Source: Mesostigma viride (lineage: Eukaryota > Streptophyta > Mesostigmatophyceae > Mesostigmatales > Mesostigmataceae). From it: 64,000 nt of DNA. The notes under the pieces were generated by a model. The model saw nothing but the letters and a program-made list of their open reading frames with translations, was not told the origin of the DNA and searched no databases. The stretch covers positions 3,880,332 to 3,944,331 of the forward strand of contig RPFO01000253.1 in the NCBI GenBank assembly GCA_009746045.1, read 5' to 3'. Shown here piece after piece: positions 356 through 54,335 of this stretch. The position numbers and the translations under genes are program-made. Position 1 is the first letter of the stretch; each line of letters starts with the position of its first letter.

Positions 356-448
356 CTATGCTCCTGTGATACCCGGCTCCACATTGTACCTGATTGCAGT
401 ACCCATGCCGACATGATGCAGTATATCTAATCCGGTACCCACACTCAC

Positions 449-2642: not shown

Positions 2643-9964
<7,322 letters not shown>

Positions 9965-18112: not shown

Positions 18113-18261
18113 GAGCAAGATCGTCACGATCAATGATGCGCAGTGCAATGCCAGCGAAGGGTGCGACATCAGCAAACGGCGCAGTGATAATGGGAAAAGC
18201 GGTTCCTTTTGAACAGAGTTCGAGGCATCAAGTGCGGTGCTGCGTTCGTTTAGGAAGATAC

Positions 18262-18475
18262 ATGTTACAACGACGCCAACCGAACTGACTACGTGCTGAC
18301 CTTGTCTGTAGAGGGGGCAAGTAGCGATGATTGTTACAACGACGCCAACCGATTTGACCCCGCGGTGACCTTGTCTCATGATAGAGGGGGCAAGTAGGGA
18401 TGATTGTTACAATGACGCCAACCATATTGACTACGCGCTGACCTTGCCTATAGAGGGGACAAGTAGGGATGATTG
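18262..18475. repeat. ~70-bp tandem repeat, 3 copies
   Basis: Three copies, each starting TTGTTACAAYGACGCCAACC and ending AGGGGRCAAGTAGSGATGAT. In intron 1 of the broken FAD monooxygenase copy, just downstream of its exon 1. Confidence 0.9.
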
Positions 18476-20269: not shown

Positions 20270-20667
20270 ACTTGATGCGACCCCGACCTGGGATAGCTCG
20301 TCCGTAAGGCCGACAAAATCCGTGAACTTTTGGGTCCGCCCGTTTATCAGGTATAGATACCCGAGGGCAGGATCGCATGCATCCACCTCGCTCCGCTTCT
20401 CCAGCACGACGATGTCCTCCCAGCCTCGTTTCGCGAGCATGAGGGCGGAAGCCAACCCGGCCGGACCGGCACCCACCACGAGAGCGCAGAGGGCTTGTTG
20501 TGGGCGCGGCGGGCATTCTGCACATTGGCTCCAGCGGACGCAGTAATTCGTGGGTATACTTGGCGCCTTCTGCTGGGTGATATTCGCTCCCGCATGGCCT
20601 GGAAAGAACCGATCTCGCTGAGCTTGGTCGGTCTGCATAAGAATGTAGTTGTCATTGAAAAGGTCAT

Positions 20668-30044: not shown

Positions 30045-31690
30045 TCTAACTCTAAGCTATCTCTAGTCTAGAAAATCCTAACTACACTGCTCAGCAGAAT
30101 GCCCCTTCCGATTGGGGGGAGGGGGCTTCAATGCCCACAGGGGCTGGCGTGTGAGCCTGGACAATCTTCTGCCACCTCTTCTTGTTCTGCATAGCAGTCC
30201 AAAGAAGAGAGAGGGAGTGAATACGGTGTTCAAACTGAGCTGGGACCACTAGGTCGGCCAGCAACATCTGGATGTAGTTCATGGCAGGTTTACCTAGCTT
30301 TCTAGGAATGTCCTTGGGGCCAGGCCATGTCAGGATGTGCCGCCCTGGTTGGCCAAGCCGCCGGGGGCCGGCCAGACCGAGGTCGGTGTCTACCTGACTG
30401 TTGCGAGCAAGATGTCCTACGAATGCTATCCTACGCTGTCTAATCTCGTCCAAAACGTGAGGCATGTACCCTGGTACAAAGACTCTAATGACCTATATAT
30501 GCTTTATAAACCCTACATCCAGGACCTGTCGGAGCCTCCTATAAACCGTGCCGTCGAGCTTGGCCGCTCGTGTGTCAGTCCGCGAGTGTCCATGCCTCGG
30601 CGCCATACGTAAGCACCGTGAGAACAAGGACCTTTAAGAGCATGCGCTTGCGGTGCTTGCCCAGGCACTTCGAGCGCCAGTAGGTGTTGAGCGAACGAAG
30701 CCTGGCCCAGGCCAGGCCGATGCGGATGTCCACATCGTCGGCGGTGTCCGGGGAGCCGAGCATGTTCCCCAACAGTTTGAAGCGATCACGGAACGGGACC
30801 TCCGCCCCGTCGAGCAGTCGCGGCAGCGGCGGGCGACTGGAGGCCCCAATCACCATCATCGCCTCAGTTTTGACACTAATCTCCAACCCCATGTAGCCCT
30901 CGCCTCCAAGCCCATACAGTCCAGCCAGGTCTGAATGTACGTGCTCAGGGCGCGCGATGAGGGTGGTGTCATCCGCATAAATCAGGTCGGACAGGCGGTA
31001 GCCAGTGCCAACTCCGCCGTGCTCGCGCTCGTTAAAAAGGATGTCCAAGCCGGGCTTGAACCCCTTAAGAGCAGTAAAGCGCGCACGTGCCCGGCGCATG
31101 ACGTGATCCACGACAATAATGAACAGATATGGGGACAGGACACAACCTTGCCACACCCCGTGGTGAAGGCGGAATGGTGGGGTGGTGCCTTCCGCAGTCC
31201 GCACTACTGCCTGTGAGCCCTCATACAGTCGACGAATGGCAGCAATAAACGCTGGTGGTACCCAATCCAGAGCTAGGATGGCCCAAAGAAGAGCCTCCCA
31301 GAGGACCGTGTCAAAGGCCTTGATATAGTCGACAAATATGAAGACCAGCGGCAAACCATCAGGGCAAAGACGACGCACCTCCTCCATCAACCGGCGCGCG
31401 ACAATACAGCCATGCCAGTGTTACGACCACGACGGAAACCCATCTGAGACTCACCCAGGTGTGGGTCCAGCGCGGCGCGGAGCCTGTGCAACATCATGCG
31501 CATGAAGACCTTCAGCGCGGCGCTCTGGAGGCAGACACCCCGATAGGTACCGGGGCTCAGCAGCAGAGCCCTTCTTGTACAGCATGACTCGGATGGCCGT
31601 CTGCCACTCAGCAGGCTTAAAGTTCATACTACACATAGCTGCCCAACACCTGTGGGCATAAATCCTCAATCCTGGTCAACTCCTGAGCTA
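30045..31690 (-). mobile_element. Decayed LINE reverse transcriptase
   Basis: The minus-strand frame 31390-30575 has FIFVDYIKAFDTVLWEAL, GVWQGCVLSPYLFIIVVDHV, the catalytic LIYADDTTLIA, and LTVLTYGAEAWTLAD. The N-terminal fingers are in another frame (31669-31451), and the C-terminal IAFVGHLARNSQVDT with NKKRWQKIV is in a third (30465-30091). It is therefore 5'-truncated near 31690 and frameshifted at least twice. It lies tail to tail with the LINE ending at 30031, and its 3' end runs into the ATTGTCTCCTTGAT motif (30045-30032). Confidence 0.85.
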
Positions 31691-32260: not shown

Positions 32261-35200
32261 TTAGCCCATGGCCGGGGCAAAGTTGCTGAAGGGGCTTGCT
32301 GGGAAGCTGTGTTGGAAACTGTGCGCGATCCGCTCAGCCGCTTGGTAGCCAGACTCAATCACCTTGCCGACTGCGAGGCCCCCGTAGTGGTTGCCTGCAC
32401 AGTCAGCGATCAGGTTTGCAGGGAGAAAAGAGGGAGTCCGCGAAAAGGTCAGTAAAGGTGTGTAAAGTGCGTTCTACAGTGATAACATGGACAGATGCTG
32501 CCGGTCGTTATGCCAAGTAACATCCCACCACAGTGGACTGGCCCTCGACTCTTTACTTGGGGCACACAGCGCCCCCACAGCATCTACTTACCCTAACTCG
32601 CAACCATGCTGCCGACTGTGTCGACAACCGCACGCATGCTCAACCCTAAGTTGCAAACTGCCTGCGGCAAGGTGGGTGCTGAGAAAAGCATAGTAGTATG
32701 GAGCGTACCTAGGGAGGCTGGGCGATGCACAAGACACACAGCCAGGCACAGCATAAGTCACACCCGAATTCACACCCGAAGTCACTCTCTAAGTCACACC
32801 CTAAGTCACACCCAAAGTCATACCCTAAGTCACACCCTGAGTCACACCCTAAGTCATATCCACAACGTAACCGCCAGGAACAGCCCCGGCCGTGTCCTGT
32901 CCAGATTGCTTACTAGTGCACACGGTACCCTACCAGCCCCCACTTACCAGCCAGGAACAGCCCTGGCAGCTCCCGCTCTAGCGTCTTCATCGAGTTGAGG
33001 ACTTTGTCGTAGCCCTTGCCGTAAACGGGGAACGCGCGCCGCCAGAATATGTGCCTGCAGTTTGCAACGACAAATAACAATGTGTGGTTGCATCATATGG
33101 TCTATGTACTCAATATGAGCCGCCAGAATATGTGCCTGCGGTGTGCAACGACGAACAACGATGTGTGGTCGCGTCATATGGTCTATGTACTCGATATGCG
33201 CTGCCAGAATATGTGACTGCCGTGTGCAACGATGAATAACGATGTGTGGCCGCATCATATGGTCTATGTACTCCATATCCGCCGCCAGAATATGTGCCTG
33301 CGGTGTGCAACGATGTGCTGTCGTATGACATGGTTGATCAATTCAACATGCGCGACCATACTATGTGCCTGCAAGTATTGTTATTGCCCAGGGCAGGGGT
33401 GTTACAAGGATACAATTTAGTTTTTCTGTTGTGAATGTGCTGCCTCTTGCTTTAACTAGGGCCATTGCGGATTTGCGATTCCGCTGTTCCTGGGCCGACT
33501 TTATTGCTACACAGGCTTCCTAGATTATGAGGTTGGGGCTGGCGAGTTGCCGCCCTTTCGATAGGGTAGTTCGCGCGTAGCCTCTACTTTTGGCTGTCTG
33601 CCATTCCCTTGGGTTTGACTTCCAAGTTTCTGTTGCTTGAATATTTTCCCTGCATTGTTTAAATGATTTACGAAAGTCTCCCTTCTTGTTTAATATACAT
33701 GAGTATGGCTTGAAAGAGATTATTTATGCCAGTTGGATGGAGCGCACAACAAAAAAGCATTGAGCTACTGACACGATGTCAATTAAATCGGCGGTAAAGT
33801 GAGCCCCACGGCATGCCCAGAAGCATTCATGGAGGTCATAGGGAAAGAAAGAGGGGGGGTGGAGGCCAGAGACTGTGCCGAAGAAGTGCAAGTGATCTAT
33901 TCAATTGAACTCAGATGGCTAATGAGTGCTATAATTAGTGGCAGACTCAAGCATGCGGGTTGAAGGCACCACATCCGTTACAACCAAGACAATCTCCCCC
34001 TCTTGAAGGAATCACACCCGTCACAATCGAATGTCCCCCCCTTCAACCTAAAATAGGTAATTGGACACAATTTCGGGGCTCCGTAATTGTTCAACCCACT
34101 GCTGCCTGAGAGTGACTATCTCTTGCGGCTAGTATCCTCGCCCTCACAGACAGGGGGAGAACTGGAGAGGCACCGGCGTGAAATTGCCCTGTGGAATGGA
34201 TGCACACTGGAAGCGCGCACCTGCACATGACCGGCTGGCCGTCAACCTGCAGCAGCTTGCGCAGGTCCTGCAGCACCAGCTCCTCGAGCTCCTCCCTGCG
34301 GGGGGGGGGATGCAGGAAGAGCAGGGAGAGATCAGGGAGAAGGGAGGGGGAGGGGGAGAGGGAGAGCAGGGGAAGAGTAGGGGGGGGGGTAAGGATAGAA
34401 TAGGGGGAGAGTAGCGAGAGGGAGGGGAGAGGGTAGGGAGAAGAGGGCGCGCATGGGAGTCAGCGAAACCAAGGCAAGCGGGCAGGCAAAAGAGGAATGG
34501 GTGGCCAGTGAGGCAGATGCTAGAAGTGAGGCAAAGGGCGAACAGGTTCAGGAATGCCATAGCCTCATTAAAAAAGGGCGTCAAAACAAACTGTCACAGG
34601 CGACATGAATGCAAGTGCAATAAATGCAGTTGCCTGCGCAGACTTCAGCGAGCACAGAAGCAATGGTATATGCAATAATGTTGTGCCACCGGTGCCACCT
34701 GAACTTCCTACTGTTCCTCTGGAAGCTCCCCACAGTCACCAGAAGCCCCTACAGTTCACCACGACGTGGGGCAGCTGATTATTCAATTGAAGCCGTGTGC
34801 GGCTTGGCACGCATTGGCATAGATTCTGGCAGGGAGCGGGGAAGGGGGAGCGGGTCGATCACCAACCACGTCTATGAGTGTATATATTTGAAGTCCATGT
34901 TGCTGCCAGCTCGTAAAATAGTTCTCTATACGTGTCATCGTATCCTGATATCATATCCCTGATCCGGTGATTCTACCTCGAGTCACCCGCAACTACTCCA
35001 CGAGACACCGACTAAACCACTGCCCCGTCTGCTCACCATCACACCCCCAGTGCAAGCTTGGCGGCTTGCCCACCCACCTCTAGGGTTGGCACGGGGCTAC
35101 CTATACCCACATTTGGCCATTACAGTACTGGTATGGCTACTACGTGGTCCCTGTCAGTACGGGTACCGGTACTCCTGCTATACCTGTACAGCACCCGAGG

Positions 35201-38200
35201 TGACAGGTGGTAGCTGCACCAAGTGCCAGCCCTAGCGAGCACCCACCTGGGCTTGTACGCAAGCGCCGCGTTGCGCGTGCCGCCGATGAAGGTGGTGAGG
35301 AGGGTCAGCCCCAGAGGCGCACGGTTGGGGAACATGGCCGACGAGAAGAGCGTGCCTGCGGGTGATCACAAATGATGGCCATAACAGATAAGGACTAACG
35401 ACTCAGGGATGGCATAGTTGGGACTGCAGCAGCAACGTGGCCGACGAGAAGAGCGTGCCTGCGGGTGATCACAAATGATGGCCATAACAGATAAGGACTA
35501 ACGAGTCAGGGATGGCATAGTTGGGGTTGCAGCAGCAACGTGGCCGACGAGAAGAGCGTGCCTGCGGGTGATCACAAATGATGGCCATAACAGATAAGGA
35601 CTAACGAGTCAGGGATGGCATAGTTGGGATTGCAGCAGCAACGTGGCCGACGAGAAGAGCGTGCCTGCGGGTGATCACAAATGATGGCCATAACAGATAA
35701 GGACTAACGAGTCAGGGATGGCATAGTTGGGATTGCAGCAGCAACGTGGCCGACGAGAAGAGCGTGCCTGCGGGTGATCACAAATGATGGCCATAACAGA
35801 TAAGGACTAACGAGTCAGGGATGGCATAGTTGGGATTGCAGCAGCAACGTGGCCGACGAGAAGAGCGTGCCTGCGGGTGATCACAAATGATGGCCATAAC
35901 AGATAAGGACTAACGAGTCAGGGATGGCATAGTTGGGATTGCAGCAGCAACGTGGCCGACGAGAAGAGCGTGCCTGCGGGTGATCACAAATGATGGCCAT
36001 AACAGATAAGGACTAACGAGTCAGGGATGGCATAGTTGGGGTTGCAGCAGCAACGTGGACGACGTGAAGAGCATGCCTGCGAGTGATATGAAGTGATTGA
36101 CATAACAAGGACTAAGGATACCTGTAAGATGGGATCGCAGCCACCGGCCGGTCAGCACGGCATTAAGAGACTTGGGGGGGAGGGGGGGGGGGGCAAGTTG
36201 CAGCCAATAAAGCAACTGTACGTTGCCTCCCACATGCATGGCCACGTTGGCTTTGGCCAGCCGATGCAGTGTCGGACACGGTCAACCAAACACTAGCTAG
36301 CATAGTTGCAGCCATCATGTGCAGTGACCTCTCTCGTGTTCTCCGTCTTGGGCACCAGCCCACGCGGGGCGAGCATGCATAGAGTGTAATAAACCGTATA
36401 ATTAACCATTCAGCTGCCTAGCACAAGCGGGGCGAGAATGCATAGATTGTAACAAGCCACATAATGAACAGTTTCGCTGCCCAGCACACGCGGGGCTATC
36501 ACACCCACCCAGGATATTCATGTTCTCCTTCTTGGGGACCAGCACGCCGAAGCCGTCCACCGGCTGGTGCACGTCTTCGTTGCGGAACGCCATCACCAGT
36601 ACAGATATCGGCGCGTAGGCCACCTGCACGCGGGCGTTGGTGAGGGGTGAGCCGTCACGGGGAGGGCGTAAGGGATTCCGCAGAGGGGCAGCACAGGCAA
36701 AAACTAGTGCAATACTAGTAACCAGATTCTTTCACACGCATCATAAGCATATGTCAGACTATACCAGACAGGATACGCCAGACATCCGCATATGCCAGCA
36801 TATGAGCCAAACTTTGCTGCGGAGGTGATACAGTATCCCTTTCTCGAGGCACCATAGAGCGAACAAGTGGCACACCACTGCTGGGATGGCCGCAAATAAA
36901 GGCAGCATGCTGTCAGAGATGTAAATGTTGCTCCAGTCCAGAGATACCGCATGCTACCGTCCTAACCGTTAAAGGGCATAATAAACATTCATATGATGTT
37001 TAGAATGCCCGCTCATATTACATGTAACGGAAGCTCCGGTCTTTACAAGCAGCATGCCTGACAAGGGGGGGGGGGGGGGGGGGGCACACCAATCGACCCA
37101 CCAGCCAGCATCCAACCACCAGCCAACTCTCGCACACCCGCCAACTCTTGGGAAACTAGATGCAGGTGCCAGCATCGCTGCCTCACCTCAGGCAGCGCAT
37201 CCAGTGGCACCACCCGCCCTTGCTTGGAGATGCGGATCTGCCGCAGGTTATGGAGCGGGGCCTGCGACCAAGGCGCCCAAAGAGACGTCATACAAGGGTT
37301 GCGATTGCACAGAGGCAGGTGAGTCGGCAATGACGGCACCAAAAGAGATGCCTCTCGCTCTATGTGTGTGTGTCTCTGTGTGTGGTGATCTCTCTCTACA
37401 TTGTGTCTCTGTGCGTGTTTTTTGGGGGGTGGGAAGGGGAGGGAACTTGGGCTATGAATAGCTCCCAACTAGGGCTTTCCGATTCAGGGTGGGAAGGATA
37501 TACTAGGGACAACGCTACCACCCCCATCGCTCGACCACTCATTAGGGCATTTCACCAGCATGAGCCCCACCCTGGAGTCAAGCAGCGGCCCAGACATCGC
37601 CAAGAAAGTTGGAACATATCCGATCTTTTCCGGAACGCAGTCCACATGTTAATAGGGTGCATCGTCGTTGCAAGCCTCGAAAAGTAAACGAAATGTTGCT
37701 AACAGCCGGGACGCAAGGAAAACGCAACAACTCAGCGTAGCTCCAGCGGGTACTGAACTAGGACCTCTGGCATAGATTTCGTGGCTACCGGGGTCTCCTG
37801 ATCCGAGGGCATCCCAAACTGTTACCCAACTGCGAAAAAACTCTTTACCGGAGAGTGGTGAAGAGGGCTCGTGCGGGTGACCTTATCCACGGCAGCTCAC
37901 ATTACCACCAGCAGGAGTCTGACTTCCTTACTGTCACGAGCATTATGCCACACTGCACTATATGCGCCCATTACTCTAACAACCCAAGCACACGTGGCAA
38001 GCCCACATCATCGTCACGACCGCCAGCGCCATCAGGGATGGCCCCCCTCACCGTCATGAGCACCAAGCCGAACTGAGGTTAGATACCTCAACTTCATCAT
38101 AATCATCACAAGTCTCATAATTGCCGCCAGCACCATCAAGGATCGCCTCACCGTCATGAGCACCGAGTCGAACTGCGCCGTCTTTGTCTTCTTCGCGTTC

Positions 38201-41200
38201 TGCCCTATCTGGTACGTGACACGCCACCGCCCGCTCTCCCCCCTCTCCCCACCCTCCCCCGCCCCCCCCGCATCCAGCGTCGCGTCGTAGTCCATCGCCA
38301 GCACGGAGCAGCCAGGGAGCAGGTAGTCGGTCCCGATCTCACGCGCCATTGCATTGGGAAGCATCTGGTGGGGAACGTGGTGGCCGCGTGGGTGGGCGGC
38401 AGTGGTGGGCAGGTGGGTGCGCGGCGGTGGTGGGCGGGTGGATGGGCGGCGGTGGTGGGCAGGGTGAGGCCGTGGGGTGTGGGTAGGTGGGGGAAAGGGA
38501 GTGATCCCAAGAAGGGAGAGGGCAAGGGTGGCAGAATAATCGCAAGAAGGGAGAGGGAAAGGGTAGCTATTGTGGGAACAGGGGCCGGGGGATGTCCGTG
38601 GTCGAGTTGAGTCGGGCAGAGGGAAGGGGGAGGGGAGGAGGACCATGTTGAGAGGACACGGAGGGTGTGGGGGAAGACAAGATTATCTGAGAATAGATGG
38701 GATGGCTTCTCGATCACTGTAGTATGGTGGAACTTGCATCGATGGATCAAAGTCCTAATTAAAATTCTTGCTGGCCGTACCAAGCGGCAATCGCTTTGCT
38801 GCCTCCACAGAGGGAACCCCAAGTATGACATAAGCAAAGGATCCAGTGCAGGCAAGCAGTGGCCGTATCAAGGAGACAACAAGCAGTGGCCGCATGTTTG
38901 CTTGTATCTCCCCACCCCCCTAGACCTCGGCGGAGGACGGTCACCCTGATCGTGAGTCATAGAAGACTCTGGTGCTCCTTTGGAATTGTGTTGATGGCCA
39001 CGCTGATGGCAGAGATTTTTCCTCGTACTGCGCTAGGGCGGCCGGAAACCTCAGTTACTTGCGGAGTCCTTTCTAACCTGCATGCTGAAGGCCTTGTTCA
39101 ATAGTCGGCTCCAAAGGACCCACCTGCGCGCTACACACTTAACCCACCTGCGCGCTAATCGCCTTACCCACCTGCATGCTGGAAACTTCAACCACAATCA
39201 CCTACAAAGAGTTCACCCACCCCTCTACCCACCTGCATGCCGTCCGCAAATGAGAACAAGCCCTTGCGCGGCAACCTCCTCGGCCGTACTGCCACCTGGT
39301 CATCCAGGTCCACCAGCGGCGTGTTGGGGTGCAGCTGCGGGAGCGGACGGCAGAGTTGCATGTTATGGCGAGTCCATGACATGAAACATAATAACAATCG
39401 TGCAAGAAGCAGAATATTTTATAGAAATGGTCAGTACTGTTGCTGCCTGTACTGCACGTAGGAGTGATGTGCAAGAGAACGATCAGGCCCGCAAAGTTCA
39501 AGTCAGCTCGATACGACAGCACAACATGCGGGCCGCAGTGTTGCTCCAGCATCAAGAGGGAAAGCAGCTGAAATATTGATCAGGATAATTTGTCCTTGGG
39601 TGGTATTTTCTGTTCGATTTTTTGTAGTTCAAACTGACGCAAAGCTTATGCAGCAGCTAACAGTATGGCACCATTCATTACAGCATTGAACAACAGCCCA
39701 TCATGTCCCCTTTTGATTCGTCATGCTTGCGCATGAAGAACAAATCCAAGGCAATATAGTCATGGCATCCAAAGTAAAGAAAAAGCCAACTACAACACCT
39801 GGACCCGATAAACTGATGATGCTTGAGCTTTTGGTAGTTCTGGAGGCGAATACACCACTATAGTAGCGGGGCCAGAACCGCAGGATGGCTTGGCTGCGTG
39901 ACTGGCTGACAACACTAATCAGCAAATCCCACCACCACGGATAGTAATTTGTGCGGTCGCATCTGCAAAATTTTACTTTATTTTTATTTTGCTCCTGATA
40001 CCTTGTGCACCACATCCCAGCTGGCCGAGGCACGACGTTGCTGTCCACTGACATTACAGTACCTTTGCTTGCAGCGCGGCCCCTAGTTTTTGGAAGGGCA
40101 TGGACAGGCCCTTGACCAGGCCACCCACGACGAGGGAGCCATAGCTGTGCGGAGGGGCGGATGGCAGGGAAAAAAAAAGAAGAGGCAAACACAACCATGC
40201 GTGAGAAGTTGACAGGAGAAACTGTTGACAGACGGCAGAAAAAAAACAAAAAGAGGCAAACACAACTATGCTGAGAAGCTGGCAGGGAAAACAGTGGACA
40301 GATGACACCTGGCATCCGCCCGAAGGATTGGCAGGAATGACCTATCACTGTTAGATGCACAAACTTCCGAGGTAGAGTGACCCATTGTCATCATCATCCA
40401 CTGGCATCATCGTGACATGGCATGTGGGCCCCACCACCACATATGTGTCTGCTAATCGCTCCTTACAGGACTGACGGCGTCCCCTGGCATGTCCATTATG
40501 GGATGGAAATGATTACTGCCTGGGTGGAACAGTATACGCCTCACAGACAACAAAGGGCGTGGCCCGCGGTCAGGAAAGAAGAAAACCGAGACAGCTGACA
40601 AACTACTCGAACGTTCCATGCAAGCAAACACTGCAGGATGACGCCTGACGCAGGATGATGCAAAGTCAAGGAACATGGAGCCCCAGCCGCCTCTGGTATC
40701 TGCGTGCCTGGGAAGCTAGCTGGCTCGCCGGCAGCAGGCCGCAAGACAGGCAGGGAGCGCATTAAGTTTCTATGATACACCACAATGAATATGTAGTAGT
40801 ATATTACATACTACTATATATTTGTATAATACATTAAAACTTCTATGATACAACGCAACATAGTTTAAATACATACTAATAGAAGTATATATTTATATAG
40901 ATGATACATACATCTATTTGAAGTTCTTTAATACCCTATTGTAGTTGGTTCCCCACCGTCCCCTCACCTTTGTTCGAGCGCCCAGAGTTGGTGGAACACG
41001 TGCCGCACCTGCCACGCAGACAAGGTACAAGGGGCAAGGGCAGGTATGGCCCAGACACACGTCCACGGTGTAAGGCAGCAGATTTGAGTGCACTATTTGG
41101 GATATAACAAGATAAGTTCTCTGATTATGTTCATGATACAGCCGGCACGATTGCATGTTGCCGTTTCTCACATCTGTCACTTATCCTTCTCAGCGGATAG

Positions 41201-44200
41201 ATATACACAGAACAAGGATGTAGCATGCGCATGACACATTCTGCCAGACAGACAGATTCTGTCATTAGGAAATTGTGTCGTCTCGTACCCATACCGTGTT
41301 GCGAACTACGGACACGTGCAAGCAACCACACTTGGAAGTGAGGGAACACGTGGACATGCTCGAAGCAGCGAGCGGGCTCACTAGAGCCGTAAATATACAG
41401 GAGACAACAGCACTGCACATGATATTTCGTGCCGTAAAGATGCACCATTGTTTGCACAACTCTTCGAGGCAGCTCGTGCACTCATGCATGTGAGCAATAG
41501 GTGTTACACCCATCCACTCCCAAGAATCAACAGTGAACACCTGTTGTGCCAGCAAATCGGCAATAGTATCCATGAGACGACCAGCACACGCTCTACGTCA
41601 CGATAGTATAGTGACCATGGTATCCATGAGATGACCAGCACAGGCTCGTGTAGTATCTCTGCACGGCGTGCCACGAGCGCCATGACGGGAGCCTTCGCAG
41701 GAACTGTGTACAAAGCTCAGCGTCATTTAATACCTACATTGATTACACAGGAGCCGTGCAGTGCCGAAAACTAGTGGCCATTTCAATCAGGGGGTGATAC
41801 TGGTTTGCGGACGTGCAACACGTTGCCTAGTTCATCTTCGTCCTGCGGGGTGAAACTGTGCCGTTCATAGGCTGTGCTGCATGCGGATGAAGGGGTAATG
41901 CCCACGTGCACAACTGCGATGACATACCGACACAACCTCAGGCCCTGCCCCACAGGTGCCTGCCAGGAATGGGTCTAGTAGATAGTCCACCATCTGCAGG
42001 GGTGGCAAACAGCAATAGAAACCAAGTAAAATAGATTTTCAGGTGGTCAGACCCAGCAATGAGGACAGGGACGTTTCAATCCTCGAGGGATTAATATCTC
42101 AGGGAACCAAAAGCTACTATGGGTGTTATTAATATCTCAGCGAACCCCGAATTACTATGGGTGAATGGATGGGAAAGATCGCCTCACATCCCAAGGAACA
42201 TTGAAGTGTTGACCGTTGGGAGGGTCATGTAGCGCCGGGGGCAACACCCCATCACTAGAATGCCGGGTGTCTTTCCCGTGGAAATGAAATTCTTTTTTGC
42301 TAAAATACGCTGGATAGAGGTTAACTCCAGCCATGCCACTGTTGTTACAAAGGTACAGCGCTCAACTACTGGTGCAACGTAGCCCAGGAGAACACTACAA
42401 AAATTATAGTGCAAGGAGGGCTGCCGATGCCTTGTCTGCTTCTGCTAGTTGGAGCGCCGAGCCACTCCATGCGCATAATCTTAAAAGCCCACTATTGAAG
42501 CCATGTGAGGTCAAAGGTCATGGGGACGAGGACTGGAGAGGTATGAGTGGGAAGTTGTTGGAAGGAAGTGGCATGCATAGGGGAGGGTACGGGTTCAGGT
42601 GCACCTGTGTCTCGGAAAGTTTAGGCAAAAAGGCAAATGGAAACCTAGGAAAAGCAAGGGAAAGAATGTAAGCACATGAGTTGCAATAAGTAATGAAATA
42701 GTTTAGTACCATACTGGATTCGAAAACAGGACCTCTTGCATGATTTCGCGGCTATAGGGGTCTCCTGATCTGAAGGCATCCCAAGCGATAGCCCAACTGC
42801 GAAAAAGCTCTTTACCGGAGAGCGGTGCAAGTATGTCCGAAATTCTCCAATATGAACCAGTGGATCGAATCTAACTGCTAGCCGCACGGGGGCGAATGTG
42901 AGTAGGAGTACTACTCACTGGGTCACGCCGGCGGAAGCCGCTCGGCACAAAGGTTCCGGACCATTATTTATCAAAGCTGATGTCAGCAGAAACATAAAAA
43001 AAAAATCACGTAAAGCCACCGTCATGGCAGCGACGCGGGCCACATAATGGAAAGTTTTGCCCATACCTCTTTCCCGAAATGCCGTCCGAAAAAGTCTCCC
43101 GCACTGCTCAGGGGACAGCAACAGCAGCACAACAGCACATAAGGGAGTTAGTACTTGCGCATGTACAGATGTACTCTTCATACTTACGTCAGACTGTGCA
43201 GCAGGCATGCTGGAACGCCTGCACGTGACTGCAGCAGGCATCTAAAGACACGAATGGGGCATCAATACTAGGCTCTCATCGTTCCACGCTTTCCAACTTG
43301 GGCATGCGGAGGGCAGCAGATGCTGGACACACATTTTCTGTAAAAGATAAATCCTGATAGCAAAAGAAGTAGATAACCTTGTTAGGCCAACTATGAGATC
43401 TGGGACCCCCTCAGAACAAATGGAGAGCATTCTGAGATGCAAATAGTTCACTACAAGAGCGTACGCTTCGTATCACAAACTAAAGCTACGTTATGCTGGC
43501 CTCTGGCGAGTGCATGCCTGCACGTGAAGCCGCAGCTGCTGCTTATGCCGACAGCCAATGACTGCCAATGACAGTGTCTTTGAATGACAATATCCACAAA
43601 ACGCCTCTGTGCCAACGTGAAAAAAACCAAGGCTGCATGACTAACCTCCCGTCGTACTTGAGGCTGCAATCCTCGAATAACACGTGTATTAGCATAATAC
43701 ACCAATTGAATGACCGACTTCTCGTCCTGCTAGAGGCTGCAATCCTCTATTAAGATGTATATTAGCATAACACACCAACTGCATGACTGACCTCTCGTCC
43801 TGCTTCACTTGTGGCTGCGCCCCCGCCCGCACCGCCCCCCCCTTGTCATCTCTCCGTTGCCAGAAGAAGGGCTCACCCAGCACTTGCTTCTGTTGCCGCC
43901 ATGGAAACAGGGTGGGCGAGCGCAGCCATGAAGTTAGTGTTGCACACACCCAAAACCCTCACCCAGCAGCTACTTCCGTTTGTCACCAAACAAGGGATTG
44001 TTGTCACCAATGCGATTAGGCACGGAAGCAACGGCACGGGTAAAGCGTGCCACCAATCCCAAACCCTCACCCAGCACTTGCTTCGGCATGTCGCCGATAC
44101 ATGATGGGAGCACCCCAGTACGGAGACTGCGTGGAGCAAGCAGGCAGATGCGAAGGTTCATGAAGCACGCAAACAATACACTCACCCAGCATCTGCTTCT

Positions 44201-47200
44201 ATTGCCACCCATACAGTGAAGTAGGTAGTGAGGTGGGCAAGTGAAGGCATGCAATTCATTCACCGGAAACCCTCAGCGAGCAGCTGCCTTAGTTGTCGTG
44301 AGCACAGCGTCAAGAGGGGTGGACAATCCAAGCATCACAAAACGCAAGGAATACACACTCCGACACACACCACTGACGACGGCCTCAGAAACGGTGACCC
44401 TACAAAACCCTAACTGCCTCTGCTACCACCGGCACGGTGATCGATGGATGAGGCAAGCAGCCATAGGCCAAGCCTGCGCCACAACGATGGATGGATCGGG
44501 CAAGCAGCCATAGGGCAAGCCTGCGCCACAGTTCCAATCTACGCCCTCACTCAACGCCGGCGTTCAGTCCAAGCGCATGGCACTGACTCGAGTGGTGGGA
44601 TTCCAAGTTCGCAGTGGCTTCGTTGGACAGGGCCTTTGACATGCGACGTGACCCATGACACCTGGCGGACAAGCACTGCCTTGCCCACCTTGGCTTCGTC
44701 GGACAGGATCTTGGACTTGAGAAACTCCATGGGGTTGCTGGGCAGCTGTGCCCACCCGGCACAAACAAACGGCACCAACAGGCGGCACCAACAGCATGAA
44801 ATCGAACAAGCGTGTGAGTGGCACACGTGGCGGCGAGAGGCGGCCGGTTTTTCGTCGCCTAACTTATATTTCGCCTGTTTTTTTTCGCATTATTTACATT
44901 TCGCCTGTTTTTCGTCGCCTAACAAACATGTCCCCTGTTTTTTGTCGCCTAACAAATATTTCGCCTGTTTTTCGTCGCCTAACGAACATTTCGCCTGTTT
45001 TTCGTCGCTTACCTTACATTTCGCCTGTTCATCGTCGCCTAATGTACATTTCGCCTGTTTTTCGTCGCCTAACGAACATTTCGCCTGTTTTTCGTCGCCT
45101 AACGAACATTTCGCCTGTTTTTCGTCGCCTAACGAACATTTCGCCTGTGTTTCGTCGCCTAACGAACATTTCGCCTGTTTTTCGTCGCCTAACGAACATT
45201 TCGCCTGTTTTTCATCGCCTAACGTGGCGAGGTGTCGCAATGTGTGGCAGCACTAGCAGTTAAGCAAGCTACTAGGATTTAAGTAACCTGAATGGCTAGT
45301 GCTGATACTAGGAATACAACTCCGGGTCTCAGAGTAGGGTATTGTGCGGCGGCCTGAGGCAGCGTGAGGTGGTGTCATCGTTGTCATAATGGAGGTCATG
45401 AGATGGGGTGCCAGAATTGCTACTCATGGCAAAGGCCATGCACGACTGGCATTGTGCTTGTTTGGAAACAGGTGCAACCATGGGCAAAAGTAGCACCTGC
45501 CCAAAAATCGTGGTTGCCCCACCGCACCATGAGCATGAAAACAGTAACACGTGGATACTAAGACTTCAAACACTACGATCACTTCTTGTGGATACTTACA
45601 CTTCAAACACCACACCACTTCTTGTGGATAGTAAGACTTCCAACACTACACCACTTCTTGTGGATACCAACACAGCCAGCAAACCGGCGCAATGCCGAGT
45701 GGTGGAAGAAGCTATTTTGGTAACGCATACACAGAAGCTGGCATAGGGTACCCGCAGGGCAAGCGGACTGAGCACAGGGTGTGCAGGAGGGCTGCAAACA
45801 GCATGCGGTGGTGGTGCTCTAGGGAAAAAAGACCCATGCAGCCAACCACAGACTGAACCAGAAGCCCGGTCGAACTAGCATAGCCTATGCACGAAATTAT
45901 TACAGACACAGCTGTAGCAAGGGCCTTGGCCCGCAAGGTCATGACCATGCCATGTTGGCACGCCCACAGCCCGCACAGCTGTACACAAGGCAGTAGCTTG
46001 TCATGAGCATGTGGACCAGCGCAGTGGCGTAGGACAGGGCCATATGCACGGCTGCCGGATGCACATGGCCATCCATGCGCGGGGCAGCGCAAAGGCCACG
46101 TGCACTCTTATCACGGCTATAGTGAGTGGGGCAGGCCGCGGGCGTACCTGGACCAGCGCGCCATCTCTCACGATGAAACGCTTGTGCGCCGACTTGGGCT
46201 GAAACCGGAGGAAAGGTCATGCCGGGAAGTGCAGGCGCGTGTGCGGGAGGCAGGGGGCATGTAATGGGTGTACGCATACACGATTAACACCGCAGGCCAA
46301 GGCATACAGTGTTAATGGCAATTAGGATATTCCATGCGAAATACGTTCTAGGGATGCGCGTTTCGGGGATGCGTTTTGGGGCGACGCCTTCTGGGGAGAC
46401 ACAAAATGTTTGGGGGGGGCACAGAATCCGTTGGATCGTAGACAGTGCCGCCCTGTGCAAATGATGGGACATGTCCTGGCTGAGTTCTTAGAGTGGGGAG
46501 CATTGCAGCAGGAACCTAAAAGAGAGGAGCCCCGCAGCAGCAGTTGTGAAAAGCGGCAGTAGGTCGGGCTGACCAAGTGGCGGGGCACGAGCTGCCTGCA
46601 ACACCGGGTATCAACGACCCTTATCATCTGCTAGCATCGTCACTATCGACGATGCAATTGCTACAGGACAAGCCCATCTGTACGTGCCGAGGTGCTGAAT
46701 GGTTTGCCCGCTTGGTCCCAGCTTGAGGCCGCACAAGCAACCGGTACACATAAAGAAAAACATGCAACACGTACACAAGGGACACTTGGCTCACATTCAC
46801 TGCCAGAAAAGTAAATGGTGTCATCTTGTAAGCGAGTTAACACCACCACCACCCCTGCCCACCCTCCCAAAGTGCACTATTTTTCTCACCCTCACAACCG
46901 CGGAAGAAGCAATCATACACCCTGTATCGTTCGCAGTTCTGTAGTTCCCCAACTTGATAGCGGCTAGCCTAGCGGATAGCCTAAACCTCTGTAGTTCCCC
47001 AACTTCTTAGCGGCTAGCCTAGCGGATAGCCAAAAACTCTGTAGTTCCCCAACTTGATAGCGGCTAGCCTAGCGGATAGCCTAAACCTCTGTAGTTCCCC
47101 AACTTCTTAGCGGCTAGCCTAGCGGATAGCCTAAAACTCTGTAGTTCCCCAACTTGATAGCGGCTAGCCTAGTGGATAGCAAAAAACTCTGTAGTTCCCC

Positions 47201-50200
47201 AACTTGATAGCGGCTAGCCTAGCGGATAGCCAAAAACTCTGTAGTTCCCCAACTTGATAGCGGCTAGCCTAGCGGATAGCCAAAAACTCTGTAGTTCCCC
47301 AACTTGATAGCGGCTAGCCTAGCGGATAGCCTAAACCTCTGTAGTTCCCCAACTTGATAGCGGCTAGCCTAGCGGATAGCAAAAAACTCTGTAGTTCCCC
47401 AACTTGATAGCGGCTAGCCTAGCGGATAGCCAAAAACTCTGTAGTTCCCCAACTTGATAGCGGCTAGCCTAGCGGATAGCCAAAAACTCTGTAGTTCCCC
47501 AACTTGATAGCGGCTAGCCTAGCGGATAGCCTAAACCTCTGTAGTTCCCCAACTTGATAGCGGCTAGCCTAGCGGATAGCCAAAAACTCTGTAGTTCCCC
47601 AACTTGATAGCGGCTAGCCTAGCGGATAGCCAAAAACTCTGTAGTTCCCCAACTTGATAGCGGCTAGCCTAGCGGATAGCCTAAACCTCTGTAGTTCCCC
47701 AACTTGATAGCGGCTAGCCTAGCGGATAGCCAAAAACTCTGGATGACGCAAGGGCCAAGCAAGGCCCGAACATGCAATCAGGGAAAGGGGGCCACGGAGG
47801 CATGGGCACCATGGGTATAACAATATAATAGCAACAATGTAGTATGTGACTAGCGAGTTGTGCAGCCACTTGTGAGTGTCTACCGAGGTATCTAACGCAG
47901 GTAGAGGCAAGCCTTTGCTGAGACATGGGCACCGTGGATACTGGATGTCTAATTCACCTCTAGTTTTTGTCTGACCGTAGTTAGTGCATACTTAGCATCT
48001 ACCTATGCAATTGTACAGTGGGCACTGGGAGGCGTGAGTAAGCGACGTAACACTGCACCGCGCTGAGTCTTTACCAACGGTAGAGGTACTTGAGTGTCCA
48101 CCCACGTAGCACAGGTGGAGGGGGCAGTGGAACCAAATGGTGGGATGTGTACCGACGTAAGCAGCACAGGTGGAGGGGGCTGTGGGAACCAATCGGTGGA
48201 ATGTCTGCCAACGTACGTAGCGCTGCGCCGAGTCCAGCCCCAGCTCCGATATCACGTTGCTGACGACAGGCGTGTTCTCCATCTGATGTTTCAACGATCC
48301 AAGGTGGTGGCAAACCAGTGGTTTCAAACGAGCGGGAGAGAAATAAGGGGTGGCCGTGTGCCAGTCATGTGCCTGCTATGACAAAGGGCACATTCTCCAT
48401 CTGCCACATCAGCGATGGCAAAGCCAGCGAGGCAGCGGCGACCGACTCGCACATTGGACTAACAAAGGTGTGCGTGTGTGAGTGCCTGCGTGTGTGTGTG
48501 TGATCTCAATCTGCCACGAAAGCGACCAAGCGGCAAGGCTCAAGCAGGACAGCAGCACGCTGCCGGTGCCATGGAGCAAGACAGGTTCTGCGTGTGTGTG
48601 CTCCACCTGCTGCAGTAACTGTCGGATGGCAAGCCAACAAGTAGCGGGGGACTGGCAAGCCAACGAGACCTGAGCAAGCAAAACACGTTGGCACAAGACA
48701 GGCTGGTGTGAGACGTCAACTCGAGACCGTTGAAACCAGCATCCGGTGGCACCAACCACGTGGGTTCAGCAGGGACGACATTGGTTTGAAAGCATTTAGT
48801 TGAGAGGCGTGGGCGGTCTGGGGTGGGTTTGCCTTCTATGGCTTCGCCAAAAGGGGGCTGGCTTGTAATAGTGTTGTTTCATTCTGCAGCGGACGCTATA
48901 CTTCCAAGCATGCCTTCCCGTTCCATGACTCCCTCCCATTTCACGAACCATCGAAAACCAGGAGCTCGTTCTGATCCCCCTTACCATCAGCCTATTATAG
49001 GTACCGCAGGCAACCCTGCTGTAGGCAGCCGAGCACGACCCTGACTTAGGGTTTAGGGTTTAGATGGCACATGCCTGCGCGCGCCTATACGTGGGATACA
49101 TGCATGGAGGATGGCAGCGGGAACACGAGAGGATGGCAGCGGGAACACGAGAGGATGGCAGCGGGAACATGAGAGGATGGCAGCGGGAACACGAGAGGAT
49201 GGCAGCGGGAACACGAGAGGATGGCAGCGGGAACATGAGAGGATGGCAGCGGGAACACGAGAGGATGGCAGCGGGAACATGAGAGGATGGCAGCGGGAAC
49301 ATGAGAGGATGGCAGCGGGAACACGAGAGGATGGCAGCGGGAACACGAGAGGATGGCAGCGGGAACATGAGAGGATGGCAGCGGGAACACGAGAGGATGG
49401 CAGCGGGAACACGAGAGGATGGCAGCGGGAACACGAGAGGATGGCAGCGGGAACATGAGAGGGGGAACATGAGAGGATGGCAGCGGGAACACGAGAGGAT
49501 GGCAGCGGGAACACGAGAGGATGGCAGCGGGAACACGAGAGGATGGCAGCGGGAACACGAGAGGATGGCAGCGGGAACACGAGAGGATGGCAGCGGGAAC
49601 ACGAGAGGATGGCAGCGGGAACACGAGAGGATGGCAGCGGGAACATGAGAGGATGGCAGCGGGAACACGAGAGGATGGCAGCGGGAACACGAGAGGATGG
49701 CAGCGGGAACACGAGAGGATGGCAGCGGGAACATGAGAGGATGGCAGCGGGAACACGAGAGGATGGCAGCGGGAACATGAGAGGATGGCAGCGGGAACAT
49801 GAGAGGATGGCAGCGGGAACATGAGAGGATGGCAGCGGGAACACGAGAGGATGGCAGCGGGAACACGAGAGGATGGCAGCGGGAACACGAGAGGATGGCA
49901 GCGGGAACACGAGAGGATGGCAGCGGGAACATGAGAGGATGGCAGCGGGAACACGAGAGGATGGCAGCGGGAACACGAGAGGATGGCAGCGGGAACACGA
50001 GAGGATGGCAGCGGGAACACGAGAGGATGGCAGCGGGAACATGAGAGGATGGCAGCGGGAACATGAGAGGATGGCAGCGGGAACACGAGAGGATGGCAGC
50101 GGGAACACGAGAGGATGGCAGCGGGAACACGAGAGGATGGCAGCGGGAACATGAGAGGATGGCAGCGGGAACACGAGAGGATGGCAGCGGGAACACGAGA

Positions 50201-53200
50201 GGATGGCAGCGGGAACACGAGAGGATGGCAGCGGGAACATGAGAGGATGGCAGCGGGAACACGAGAGGATGGCAGCGGGAACACGAGAGGATGGCAGCGG
50301 GAACATGAGAGGATGGCAGCGGGAACATGAGAGGATGGCAGCGGGAACACGAGAGGATGGCAGCGGGAACATGAGAGGATGGCAGCGGGAACACGAGAGG
50401 ATGGCAGCGGGAACACGAGAGGATGGCAGCGGGAACATGAGAGGATGGCAGCGGGAACACGAGAGGATGGCAGCGGGAACACGAGAGGATGGCAGCGGGA
50501 ACATGAGAGGATGGCAGCGGGAACATGAGAGGATGGCAGCGGGAACACGAGAGGATGGCAGCGGGAACATGAGAGGATGGCAGCGGGAACACGAGAGGAT
50601 GGCAGCGGGAACACGAGAGGATGGCAGCGGGAACACGAGAGGATGGCAGCGGGAACACGAGAGGATGGCAGCGGGAACACGAGAGGATGGCAGCGGGAAC
50701 ACGAGAGGATGGCAGCGGGAACATGAGAGGATGGCAGCGGGAACACGAGAGGATGGCAGCGGGAACATGAGAGGATGGCAGCGGGAACACGAGAGGATGG
50801 CAGCGGGAACATGAGAGGATGGCAGCGGGAACACGAGAGGATGGCAGCGGGAACATGAGAGGATGGCAGCGGGAACATGAGAGGATGGCAGCGGGAACAC
50901 GAGAGGATGGCAGCGGGAACACGAGAGGATGGCAGCGGGAACACGAGAGGATGGCAGCGGGAACACGAGAGGATGGCAGCGGGAACATGAGAGGATGGCA
51001 GCGGGAACATGAGAGAATGGCAGCGGGAACATGAGAGGATGGCAGCGGGAACACGAGAGGATGGCAGCGGGAACACGAGAGGATGGCAGCGGGAACATGA
51101 GAGGATGGCAGCGGGAACACGAGAGGATGGCAGCGGGAACATGAGAGGATGGCAGCGGGAACATGAGAGGATGGCAGCGGGAACATGAGAGGATGGCAGC
51201 GGGAACATGAGAGGATGGCAGCGGGAACACGAGAGGATGGCAGCGGGAACACGAGAGGATGGCAGCGGGAACACGAGAGGATGGCAGCGGGAACACGAGA
51301 GGATGGCAGCGGGAACACGAGAGGATGGCAGCGGGAACACGAGAGGATGGCAGCGGGAACATGAGAGGATGGCAGCGGGAACACGAGAGGATGGCAGCGG
51401 GAACACGAGAGGATGGCAGCGGGAACACGAGAGGATGGCAGCGGGAACATGAGAGGATGGCAGCGGGAACATGAGAGGGGGAACACGAGAGGATGGCAGC
51501 GGGAACACGAGAGGATGGCAGCGGGAACACGAGAGGATGGCAGCGGGAACATGAGAGGATGGCAGCGGGAACATGAGAGGATGGCAGCGGGAACACGAGA
51601 GGATGGCAGCGGGAACACGAGAGGATGGCAGCGGGAACACGAGAGGATGGCAGCGGGAACATGAGAGAATGGCAGCGGGAACACGAGAGGATGGCAGCGG
51701 GAACACGAGAGGGGGAACATGAGAGGATGGCAGCGGGAACATGAGAGGATGGCAGCGGGAACACGAGAGGATGGCAGCGGGAACATGAGAGGATGGCAGC
51801 GGGAACACGAGAGGGGGAACACGAGAGGATGGCAGCGGGAACATGAGAGGATGGCAGCGGGAACATGAGAGGGGGAACACGAGAGGATGGCAGCGGGAAC
51901 ACGAGAGGATGGCAGCGGGAACATGAGAGGATGGCAGCGGGAACACGAGAGGATGGCAGCGGGAACACGAGAGGATGGCAGCGGGAACATGAGAGGATGG
52001 CAGCGGGAACACGAGAGGATGGCAGCGGGAACATGAGAGGATGGCAGCGGGAACATGAGAGGATGGCAGCGGGAACATGAGAGGGGGAACACGAGAGGAT
52101 GGCAGCGGGAACATGAGAGGATGGCAGCGGGAACATGAGAGGATGGCAGCGGGAACACGAGAGGATGGCAGCGGGAACACGAGAGGATGGCAGCGGGAAC
52201 ACGAGAGGATGGCAGCGGGAACATGAGAGGATGGCAGCGGGAACACGAGAGGATGGCAGCGGGAACACGAGAGGGGGAACACGAGAGGATGGCAGCGGGA
52301 ACATGAGAGGATGGCAGCGGGAACATGAGAGGATGGCAGCGGGAACACGAGAGGATGGCAGCGGGAACACGAGAGGATGGCAGCGGGAACATGAGAGGAT
52401 GGCAGCGGGAACACGAGAGGATGGCAGCGGGAACACGAGAGGATGGCAGCGGGAACACGAGAGGATGGCAGCGGGAACATGAGAGGATGGCAGCGGGAAC
52501 ATGAGAGGATGGCAGCGGGAACACGAGAGGATGGCAGCGGGAACACGAGAGGATGGCAGCGGGAACACGAGAGGATGGCAGCGGGAACACGAGAGGATGG
52601 CAGCGGGAACACGAGAGGATGGCAGCGGGAACACGAGAGGATGGCAGCGGGAACACGAGAGGGGGAACACGAGAGGACGGCAGCGGGAACATGAGAGGAT
52701 GGCAGCGGGAACATGAGAGGATGGTAGCGGGAACATGAGAGGATGGCAGCGGGAACACGAGAGGATGGCAGCGGGAACACGAGAGGATGGCAGCGGGAAC
52801 ACGAGAGGATGGCAGCGGGAACATGAGAGGATGGCAGCGGGAACACGAGAGGATGGCAGCGGGAACACGAGAGGATGGCAGCGGGAACACGAGAGGATGG
52901 CAGCGGGAACACGAGAGGATGGCAGCGGGAACACGAGAGGATGGCAGCGGGAACATGAGAGGATGGCAGCGGGAACATGAGAGGATGGCAGCGGGAACAT
53001 GAGAGGATGGCAGCGGGAACACGAGAGGATGGCAGCGGGAACATGAGAGGATGGCAGCGGGAACATGAGAGGATGGCAGCGGGAACACGAGAGGATGGCA
53101 GCGGGAACATGAGAGGATGGCAGCGGGAACATGAGAGGATGGCAGCGGGAACATGAGAGGATGGCAGCGGGAACACGAGAGGATGGCAGCGGGAACACGA

Positions 53201-54335
53201 GAGGATGGCAGCGGGAACATGAGAGGATGGCAGCGGGAACATGAGAGGATGGCAGCGGGAACATGAGAGGATGGCAGCGGGAACACGAGAGGATGGCAGC
53301 GGGAACACGAGAGGATGGCAGCGGGAACATGAGAGGGGGAACACGAGAGGATGGCAGCGGGAACACGAGAGGATGGCAGCGGGAACACGAGAGGGGGAAC
53401 ATGAGAGGATGGCAGCGGGAACATGAGAGGATGGCAGCGGGAACATGAGAGGATGGCAGCGGGAACATGAGAGGATGGCAGCGGGAACATGAGAGGATGG
53501 CAGCGGGAACACGAGAGGATGGCAGCGGGAACACGAGAGGATGGCAGCGGGAACACGAGAGGATGGCAGCGGGAACACGAGAGGGGGAACATGAGAGGAT
53601 GGCAGCGGGAACACGAGAGGATGGCAGCGGGAACATGAGAGGATGGCAGCGGGAACATGAGAGGATGGCAGCGGGAACACGAGAGGGGGAACACGAGAGG
53701 ACGCGGGATGGCACCTTCACCCCTAAACCCTAAACCCTAAACCCTAAACCTTAAACCCTAAACCCTAAACCCTAATCCCTAAAACCCTAAACACTAAACC
53801 CTGCGCGCGCCTATACGTGGGATACATGCATGGAACGCTTAACATGGAGGAGGAAGGCCCCATCCGTCAAGAACAAGGATCAACAGCTGCAGTTGAGGCG
53901 TTGTAGTTGTACCAGATACTAGCCGTGCCCCCTCCTGCAAGTGAAATAGATAAAAGTTCTTGGTCACATACAACACGAGGATAGTGCGGGGGGCAAGCGA
54001 ATAAGAACCACGTCACCAAGACTGAGGGGTGACCATCCGCCGACAGCAATTGGGGCCCAAGTAATTTTTTTACATAGATGCTGAAATAGAGTAGTAGCCT
54101 CCAAGTATAGGCATCCACCCCTACGTAGACAACGATAGCTATGCACCCACCATAGTGTTGGGCCCTGCTTCCCAGATATAGCCGTCCTCAGATATACTGC
54201 GCACGGCGCCGCCGATGTGGCTCGAATCAAACACAGTCACGCGCGCGCCGAGCTTCTTGAGCCGGTACGCCGCCGTCAGCCCACTCAGCCCTCCCCCGAC
54301 GACCGCCACGCTTCCCGCGATGTTCTTCTGGTTCT
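32261..54335 (-). CDS. PPOX: Protoporphyrinogen oxidase (PPO2-type), 17 exon blocks over 22 kb
   Basis: Oxidises protoporphyrinogen IX to protoporphyrin IX, the last step shared by haem and chlorophyll synthesis. Exons in gene order: 54335-54151, 48282-48217, 46198-46148, 44745-44662, 43228-43188 (tentative), 43103-43067, 41993-41928, 41008-40968, 40144-40063, 39334-39233, 38364-38152, 37261-37187, 36623-36509, 35355-35247, 34295-34221, 33054-32948, 32394-32261. All junctions are GT/AG and phases agree, giving about 526 codons. Motifs: FAD-binding [110 protein letters not shown], and the C-terminal FAD site [16 protein letters not shown]. These fit plant mitochondrial-type PPO2 better than PPO1. 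The N-terminal targeting exon upstream of 54335 was not found, and the 41-nt exon rests only on phase. Confidence 0.93.
32745..32865. repeat. 12-bp minisatellite (GTCACACCCTAA)n
   Basis: About ten degenerate units in the last PPOX intron (32395-32947). The unit contains CCCTAA, but the period is 12, so it is not telomeric. Confidence 0.9.
33033..33330. repeat. 81-bp tandem repeat carrying copies of a PPOX splice acceptor
   Basis: CGCCAGAATATGTGCCTGC recurs at 33040, 33121, 33202 and 33283 (period 81). The first occurrence is the real edge of the exon 33054-32948 (minus: CAG then GCACATATTCTGGCG). The other three are intronic, so the intron carries three extra acceptors with about 15-20 nt of exon sequence. 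Confidence 0.93.
34221..36509 (-). other. PPOX introns around exons 35355-35247 and 34295-34221
   Basis: Besides the exons and the 103-bp array, this stretch contains a purine-rich run at 34310-34450 and near-unique sequence at 34450-35240. No further coding sequence is seen on either strand. Confidence 0.5.
35332..36150. repeat. 103-bp tandem repeat carrying copies of a PPOX splice acceptor
   Basis: Units begin at 35332, 35435, 35538, 35641, 35744, 35847, 35950 and 36053 (period 103, last unit diverged). Each contains GGCCGACGAGAAGAGCGTGC followed by CTGC. On the minus strand that is a CAG acceptor plus the first ~24 nt of the exon 35355-35247. Only the 35332 unit belongs to the true exon; seven intronic copies lie upstream of it in the transcript. 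Confidence 0.96.
37741..37862 (-). mobile_element. tRNA-derived SINE-like copy 1
   Basis: About 110 bp that recurs at 42708-42836. On the minus strand it has tRNA-like A- and B-box regions (GCAGTTGGGTAACAG, then GGTCCTAGTTCAGTACC). Intronic in PPOX. Confidence 0.5.
39119..39240. repeat. Three intronic copies of a PPOX splice donor
   Basis: ACCCACCTGCRYGCT occurs near 39119, 39139 and 39168, and again at the true end of the exon 39334-39233. On the minus strand each reads GCRYGCAG followed by GTGGGT, so three extra donors lie just downstream of the real one. Confidence 0.85.
42708..42836 (-). mobile_element. tRNA-derived SINE-like copy 2
   Basis: Second copy of the element at 37741-37862, about 80% alike by eye. 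Its B box is better preserved (GTTTTCGAATCC on the minus strand). It lies in the PPOX intron between exons 43103-43067 and 41993-41928. Confidence 0.55.
43871..44290. repeat. ~100-bp degenerate repeat, 5 copies
   Basis: CTCACCCAGCACTTGCTTC-like cores at about 43871, 43961, 44067, 44180 and 44270. On the minus strand each core reads like a donor (CTGG then GTGAG). It may derive from a PPOX exon edge, but I could not identify the parent exon. Confidence 0.7.
44848..45223. repeat. 30-bp minisatellite, ~12 units
   Basis: Unit TTTCGCCTGTTTTTCGTCGC plus CTAACGAACA. Because 30 is a multiple of 3, several frames stay open (for example [10 protein letters not shown] repeated), but it lies in a PPOX intron and is not a protein gene. 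Confidence 0.95.
46941..47740. repeat. 50-bp minisatellite, 16 units
   Basis: Unit CTGTAGTTCCCCAACTTGAT plus AGCGGCTAGCCTAGCGGATA plus about 10 variable bases. GTAGTTCCCC occurs every 50 bp. Two alternating ends (CCAAAAACT and CTAAACCT) and two TTCTTAG variants suggest duplication of multi-unit blocks. Intronic in PPOX. Confidence 0.97.
48070..48640. repeat. Diverged repeats around a PPOX exon with acceptor-like copies
   Basis: On the minus strand the true acceptor-plus-exon start CAG/ATGGAGAAC (48285-48274) has look-alikes near 48400 (GGCAGATGGAGAATG), 48510 (GGCAGATTGAGATC) and 48605 (GCAGGTGGAGCAC). On the other side of the exon, about 57-bp copies around CAGCACAGGTGGAGGGGGC repeat at 48110 and 48165. 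Confidence 0.7.
49046..49063 (+). repeat. Short telomere-like (TTTAGGG) tract
   Basis: TTAGGGTTTAGGGTTTAG, 2.5 units of Arabidopsis-type telomere repeat, G-strand on plus, just left of the 22-bp array. Confidence 0.9.
49108..53700. repeat. 22-bp minisatellite array, about 210 units, in PPOX intron
   Basis: Unit GGATGGCAGCGGGAAC then AYGAGA, almost invariant except for one C/T position (ACACGAGA or ACATGAGA), plus about a dozen identical 14-bp short units (GGGGGAACAYGAGA, lacking 8 bp). It fills most of the 5.9-kb intron between the first two identified PPOX exons. All three minus-strand frames are open for more than 1,500 codons because no frame of the unit makes a stop; no start context, splice site or non-repeat domain supports a protein. 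Confidence 0.98.
53719..53799 (-). repeat. Interstitial telomere-like (CCCTAAA)n
   Basis: About eleven CCCTAAA units with a few variants (CCTTAAA, CCCTAAT, ACACTAAA). The orientation is opposite to the short tract at 49046, so the 22-bp array is bracketed by inverted telomere-type repeats. Confidence 0.93.

Follow-up and report, generated by a model that had tools for sequence, protein, structure and literature searches.

We analyzed a 64,000-nucleotide (nt) stretch of Mesostigma viride DNA (assembly GCA_009746045.1, contig RPFO01000253.1, positions 3,880,332 to 3,944,331 of the forward strand), here called the window and numbered from its first base. It holds a protoporphyrinogen oxidase gene of the PPOX2 type, in which 7 of the 36 exon edges have a near-copy of themselves, spanning the exon-intron junction, in the adjacent intron.

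32261-56131, minus strand: PPOX2-type gene, protoporphyrinogen oxidase 2 of M. viride, JGI Mesvir1 model Mv05442, 19 coding exons

A protein search in which 7991 candidates were scored returned JGI Mesvir1/14803/Mv05442 as the top match. Our first model of 536 amino acids was identical to this protein at 536/536 residues, and the addition of two N-terminal exons yielded 594 amino acids with no mismatch in a position-by-position comparison. The translation also aligned to tobacco mitochondrial PPO2 (1sez) with 412 bits over query residues 5-516. The exons, modelled by homology with GT-AG borders and joined into an open reading frame, are numbered X1 to X19 and measure 37-213 nt, while the 18 introns range from 107 to 5868 base pairs (bp).

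Near-copies of exon edges were scored by self-comparison, requiring a copy within 1.2 kb that matched at least 6 nt on either side of the junction. Both boundary types are involved, namely three acceptors (X7, X16, and X18) and four donors (X7, X12, X13, and X18); several-unit arrays occur at all three acceptors and at the donors of X7 and X12, and single copies at the donors of X13 and X18. With a stricter cut of at least 8 nt per side, 4 of the 36 edges were left (X7 acceptor and donor, and the acceptors of X16 and X18), and a gapped test with a score of at least 25 recovered the same seven edges. At this threshold, reversed introns gave 0 of 36 edges (maximum score, 21), any of the 17 other introns gave 1 of 36, and exon interiors reached it in 1.4% of 485 tests. 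Moreover, comparison of the gene with itself (score of at least 14, within 1.2 kb) revealed 1065 same-strand repeats, mostly inside arrays, versus no inverted one. These results indicated that tandem duplication is general in the introns of this gene, and the inverted-repeat and other-intron controls led us to reject chance similarity as the origin of the copies. The arrays and copies are as follows.

35331-36107, minus strand: 103-bp array at the X16 acceptor (first exon base 35355), 25 exon nt per unit
35458, 35561, 35664, 35767, 35870, 35973, and 36076, minus strand: first exon-like bases of the X16 decoy acceptors
33036-33373, minus strand: 81-bp array at the X18 acceptor (33054), decoys at 33135, 33216, 33297, and 33368, 17-19 exon nt
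43872-44310, minus strand: diverged array at the X7 acceptor (43889), four intronic copies, 18 exon nt
43633-43805, minus strand: 73-bp array at the X7 donor (first intron base 43791) with two decoys (43718 and 43645) that each have GT
39118-39240, minus strand: array at the X12 donor (first intron base 39232), CAG/GTGGGT at 39171, 39147, and 39123
37998-38175, minus strand: X13 donor (38151) with one copy at 38051 that takes in 24 exon nt and, allowing gaps, about 40 intron nt
32865-32967, minus strand: X18 donor (32947) with one diverged copy at 32870 that includes 20 exon nt and has lost its GT
48112-48221, minus strand: X4 donor (48216) and its copy, 5 exon nt, GT lost from the copy; outside the seven edges
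48346-48636, minus strand: possible old copies of the X4 acceptor (48282), weakly supported
36334-36359, minus strand: copy of a 26-nt piece from near the 3′ end of X15 (36518-36543), junction not included
44615-44722, minus strand: candidate copy (32 nt) of the X6 3′ end, junction not included

An earlier note on this DNA, whose span (32948-48640) takes in only part of the gene, had described tandem arrays with exon edges as their seeds, at either end of the exon, and the three acceptors and four donors found here agree with that description. Five of the six items that it listed were recovered, while the sixth is weak. Its 103-bp array carries, in addition to the true acceptor, seven decoys, its 81-bp array three in-register acceptor copies plus a weaker fourth (33368), and its thrice-repeated donor corresponds to the three X12 decoys; its donor case near 37990-38075 is a single copy of the X13 edge with a gapped score of 78 versus 21 for the reversed target. 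The exon piece that it placed at 36336-36366 is a real copy of 26 nt from X15 (88% identity), but the source ends 9 nt before the donor and the junction itself was not copied; a 63-bp array lies near this piece. The weak item is the set of acceptor copies at 48390-48610, for which scores of 39, 22, and 29 compare with 20, 12, and 20 for the reversed target and no spanning match was obtained in the gapped edge test. The X7 acceptor, the X7 donor, and the X18 donor, as well as the X4 donor copy, are absent from that note. Gapped scores were 43 versus 20 (reversed target) for the X18 donor copy, 68 versus 18 for the X4 donor copy, and 35, 52, 45, and 24 versus 19, 24, 29, and 16 for the four X7 acceptor copies, the fourth of which is weak; all four alignments stop at the same exon base. 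The candidate copy of X6 scored 42, below its reversed target (45). Of the four copies of the X7 acceptor, three retain the exon's GTGAG 13 nt past the copied junction, which places a donor-like motif close behind the acceptor; AG is kept as well only in the copy at 44198.

The X16 array illustrates how the copies are related to one another. It consists of eight 103-bp units, counting the true edge, and the decoys of units 1-6 each differ from the exon at a single position out of 25. Units 1-6 deviate from the consensus by 0-1 substitutions, the exon-attached unit by 3, and the outermost by 47 of 103 positions. Where the exon reads T, within a Met codon, the intronic units read C. Since this change is absent from the exon, the data point to a single intronic seed that was amplified, and repeated copying from the exon was rejected for the same reason. 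Copy numbers of such near-perfect arrays are given as assembled and depend on the assembly.

As for the direction of copying, sequence moved from exon to intron, judging from conservation of the exon side with tobacco PPO2, which makes the exon the source. This conservation is clear at the start of X16 (GTLFSS) and at the X13/X14 junction (MTAPL) and less clear at X7. The opposite possibility, that the exon edges were derived from the arrays, was rejected since it is the exon side that is conserved with the tobacco enzyme.

We therefore favor, with a probability of about 0.78, the reading that exon-intron boundaries were duplicated in tandem, in the manner of minisatellites, and that the extra copies are tolerated because they are intronic. 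Introns would expand by tandem duplication, and some of the duplicated segments would straddle an exon edge. The copy joined to the exon body would keep its function, and the extra one would by geometry come to lie on the intron side, where it would lengthen the intron and add a decoy site, with no change to the mRNA provided that splicing uses the authentic site. Unequal exchange or slippage may then multiply the intronic copies into arrays, which would drift. The true site would most likely be chosen as the only one attached to a whole exon and its partner site, that is, by exon definition, for which small exons and long introns would provide the setting.

The copied exon parts are short. 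No decoy of the seven spanning cases contains more than 25 nt of exon, and the exon share of the unit at the seven edges is 0.13-0.26 (mean, 0.21), compared with 0.50 for random breakpoints (P = 0.0007). When up to 80 or 200 nt of exon were allowed in simulations, the visible exon part had a median of 28-36 nt; thus, detection does not account for the short exon parts. The likeliest cause would be selection against longer exon pieces, as a decoy followed by much exon would compete with the true site.

The strongest rival explanation holds that exon edges are mutational hot spots, at which a process tied to the junction (such as breaks linked to transcription or splicing, or the composition step at exon borders) duplicates edges more often than intron interiors. 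On base coverage, edges are duplicated about as often as interiors, with no enrichment: 7 of 36 edges (19%) compare with 17.6% of 1018 intron-interior tests outside intron 3, with 40.6% of all 1568 tests including intron 3, and with an equal-weight mean of 15.7% over 17 introns, the interior tests including the edge arrays themselves. Counting of events disagrees with coverage. Among 31 duplication clusters, 7 span an edge, 10 contain exon bases, and 9 contain at least 8 exon nt, and random placement gave 1.13 spanning clusters when exon intrusion was limited to 25 nt (P < 0.001) and 2.64 when it was limited to 60 nt (P = 0.0075), but 4.70 when intrusion was unlimited (P = 0.15). Because exons drift little, aged copies of their edges remain recognizable for longer than do intron-intron copies, a bias that favors edges in any such count. 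Simulations with slower exon-side decay still gave only 0.84-2.62 spanning clusters (P < 0.0001 to 0.013), and those with copy loss added gave 1.28-4.07 (P = 0.0002 to 0.10); the 9 observed clusters holding 8 or more exon nt compare with 0.72-3.37 expected under slower exon-side decay (P ≤ 0.005). The short and similar exon parts (8-25 nt) likewise favor a junction-tied process. On the other side, only 2 of 10 young clusters (at least 90% identity) span an edge (P = 0.04 or 0.28, according to the null), none of the eight edges tested with 28-nt probes in two neighboring genes (models P0121 and P0122) reached the threshold, and the gene had been picked because it is striking, so that one gene cannot settle a preference for junctions. 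Taken together, the excess of edges is suggestive in this gene and unproven in general, and we consider hot spots unlikely. Thus, of the earlier claim that duplicated edges on both sides of exons suggest a mechanism acting at junctions, the duplicated edges stand, whereas the mechanism is not established, as the excess depends on the null and coverage is not enriched.

A second rival explanation assigns a function to the extra sites, as decoys or recursive sites that tune the splicing or expression of PPOX. For the scoring of splice sites, a weight matrix was built on the 18 donor and 18 acceptor sites of the gene itself; it is small and includes the true sites being scored. Many decoys score about as high as their true site: the X16 acceptor decoys scored 8.6 (six) and 8.0 (one) versus 8.6, the three X12 donor decoys 11.5 versus 11.5, the X13 donor decoy 8.8 versus 8.8, and the X18 acceptor decoys 10.2, 6.5, 10.2, and 5.0 versus 9.6. 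Moreover, AG or GT is intact in 18 of 23 decoys at eight edges, so that the rows of decoy splice sites described earlier are indeed present, and this integrity speaks for a functional role. However, the five decoys without the dinucleotide all lie in diverged copies (three of the four at the X7 acceptor, and those at the X18 and X4 donors), as drift predicts, and each of the 23 decoys, if used, leads to a stop before codon 594. The true site must therefore be the main one, provided that the protein is made, and the predicted JGI protein and homology agree on the authentic sites. Recursive or regulated use of the decoys thus gained no support from the analysis of splice consequences, and we regard a functional role as improbable. 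Least probable is an assembly artefact that inflates the near-perfect arrays, since, although the 103-bp array has four identical units (2-5) and its copy number is therefore hard to assemble, units 0, 1, 6, and 7 depart from the consensus and the diverged copies at exons 4, 7, 13, and 18 are unlikely to be assembly errors.

Some observations weigh against tolerated tandem duplication of boundaries as the full explanation. The decoys at X7 fall far below their true sites, at -2.1 to 1.9 versus 8.5 for the acceptor and at 3.5 and 7.4 versus 8.8 for the donor. The test on short exon parts omits the junctionless pieces of X15 and X6 (26 and 32 nt), and X12 entered it with a 61-nt offset, while its 24-nt period gives a fraction of 0.33. 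Finally, the observed number of edge-spanning clusters exceeds that in neutral simulations, and uniform duplication followed by survival may not be the whole story. A far-reaching extension, which we put forward as speculation and consider unlikely, is that throughout the M. viride genome tandem duplication strikes exon edges preferentially, that a large share of its introns carry rows of decoys seeded from their own exons, that the spliceosome of this early-branching alga routinely chooses among equally strong neighbors by exon context alone, and that exon pieces above about 25 nt are purged as competitors. If the excess of edges were true genome-wide, it would point to a mutational process tied to exon borders.

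Within the same gene, intron 3 contains a 22-bp unit arrayed over 4.6 kb, next to telomere-like repeats (49074-53834). One exact TTTAGGG lies at 49052 and eight CCCTAAA lie in 53721-53791, and a 35-bp direct repeat (49074-49108 and 53800-53834) flanks the array; the segment looks like an inserted or duplicated telomere-associated one. Elsewhere in the window, two inverted paralogues of a flavin adenine dinucleotide (FAD) monooxygenase lie at 2697-9961 and 16384-20604 (JGI Mv05438 and Mv05441), with 80% identity in the last exon, and a third, broken fragment lies at 25240-26123. By eye, the minus-strand open frames at 14250-15461 and 30578-31420 are putative reverse transcriptases of the non-long-terminal-repeat type (YADD motif), and the one at 949-1731 resembles the start of a Rieske-type oxygenase. 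Near the window end (63203-63537), tandem units of 14 and 31 bp are apparently mirrored on opposite strands, also by eye.

Intronic minisatellites as a class are tandem arrays subject to drift and homogenization; those of this gene differ from ordinary ones in that 10 of the 31 clusters hold exon bases. The closest known structures are the "mirages" of amphioxus, which, in the part of the report available (PMC3087553), are minisatellites spanning an exon-intron boundary that were named in Adh3 and reported in globin genes; they occur at either boundary type, splicing was found to be regular by reverse transcription-PCR, and a route to new introns was proposed. A mirage is recognized by a tandem unit that runs across an authentic boundary, with intron as well as exon sequence in it, and such units were found at 7 of 36 edges in the Mesostigma gene. 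As described in that part of the report, the two systems share minisatellite-like copies of either boundary that extend into the exon, splice signals in a large number of units, and clusters that are homogenized except at their ends. They differ in lineage, the mirages being chordate and the present arrays belonging to the green lineage, and in how the use of the authentic sites was judged, by reverse transcription-PCR in the available amphioxus account and by prediction from sequence here. They also differ in number, as BflGb6 and BflGb9 of amphioxus are described there with one mirage boundary each. The type of structure is thus already known, and the present gene extends it to the green lineage, with many edges affected. 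Among the open-literature matches listed, none described such a density in a streptophyte alga or any boundary-spanning arrays in Mesostigma or other algae, and in the available main text of the Mesostigma genome paper, which gives a repeat content of 38.7%, the word "intron" occurs 0 times (PMC7027972).

These arrays show a route by which introns may grow at their edges in an early-diverging streptophyte, and the seven natural decoy acceptors of X16, which score like the true acceptor and differ from it mainly in the length of exon behind them, offer a ready-made test of splice-site discrimination. Edge duplication is also a possible source of new introns. In potato RdRp, according to the portion of that study available (PMC4974935), an intron was gained by tandem duplication across an intron-exon boundary, with a cryptic donor captured by the duplication yielding the new intron. 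The Mesostigma case is similar in that an intron end and an exon start were duplicated in a streptophyte. In contrast, the potato event, as given in that portion, created a further spliced intron as well as extra exon sequence, whereas the predicted 594-residue JGI protein, which equals the translation from the authentic sites, appears to contain no new intron or added exon at the copies, and in our model the copies stay within the old introns.

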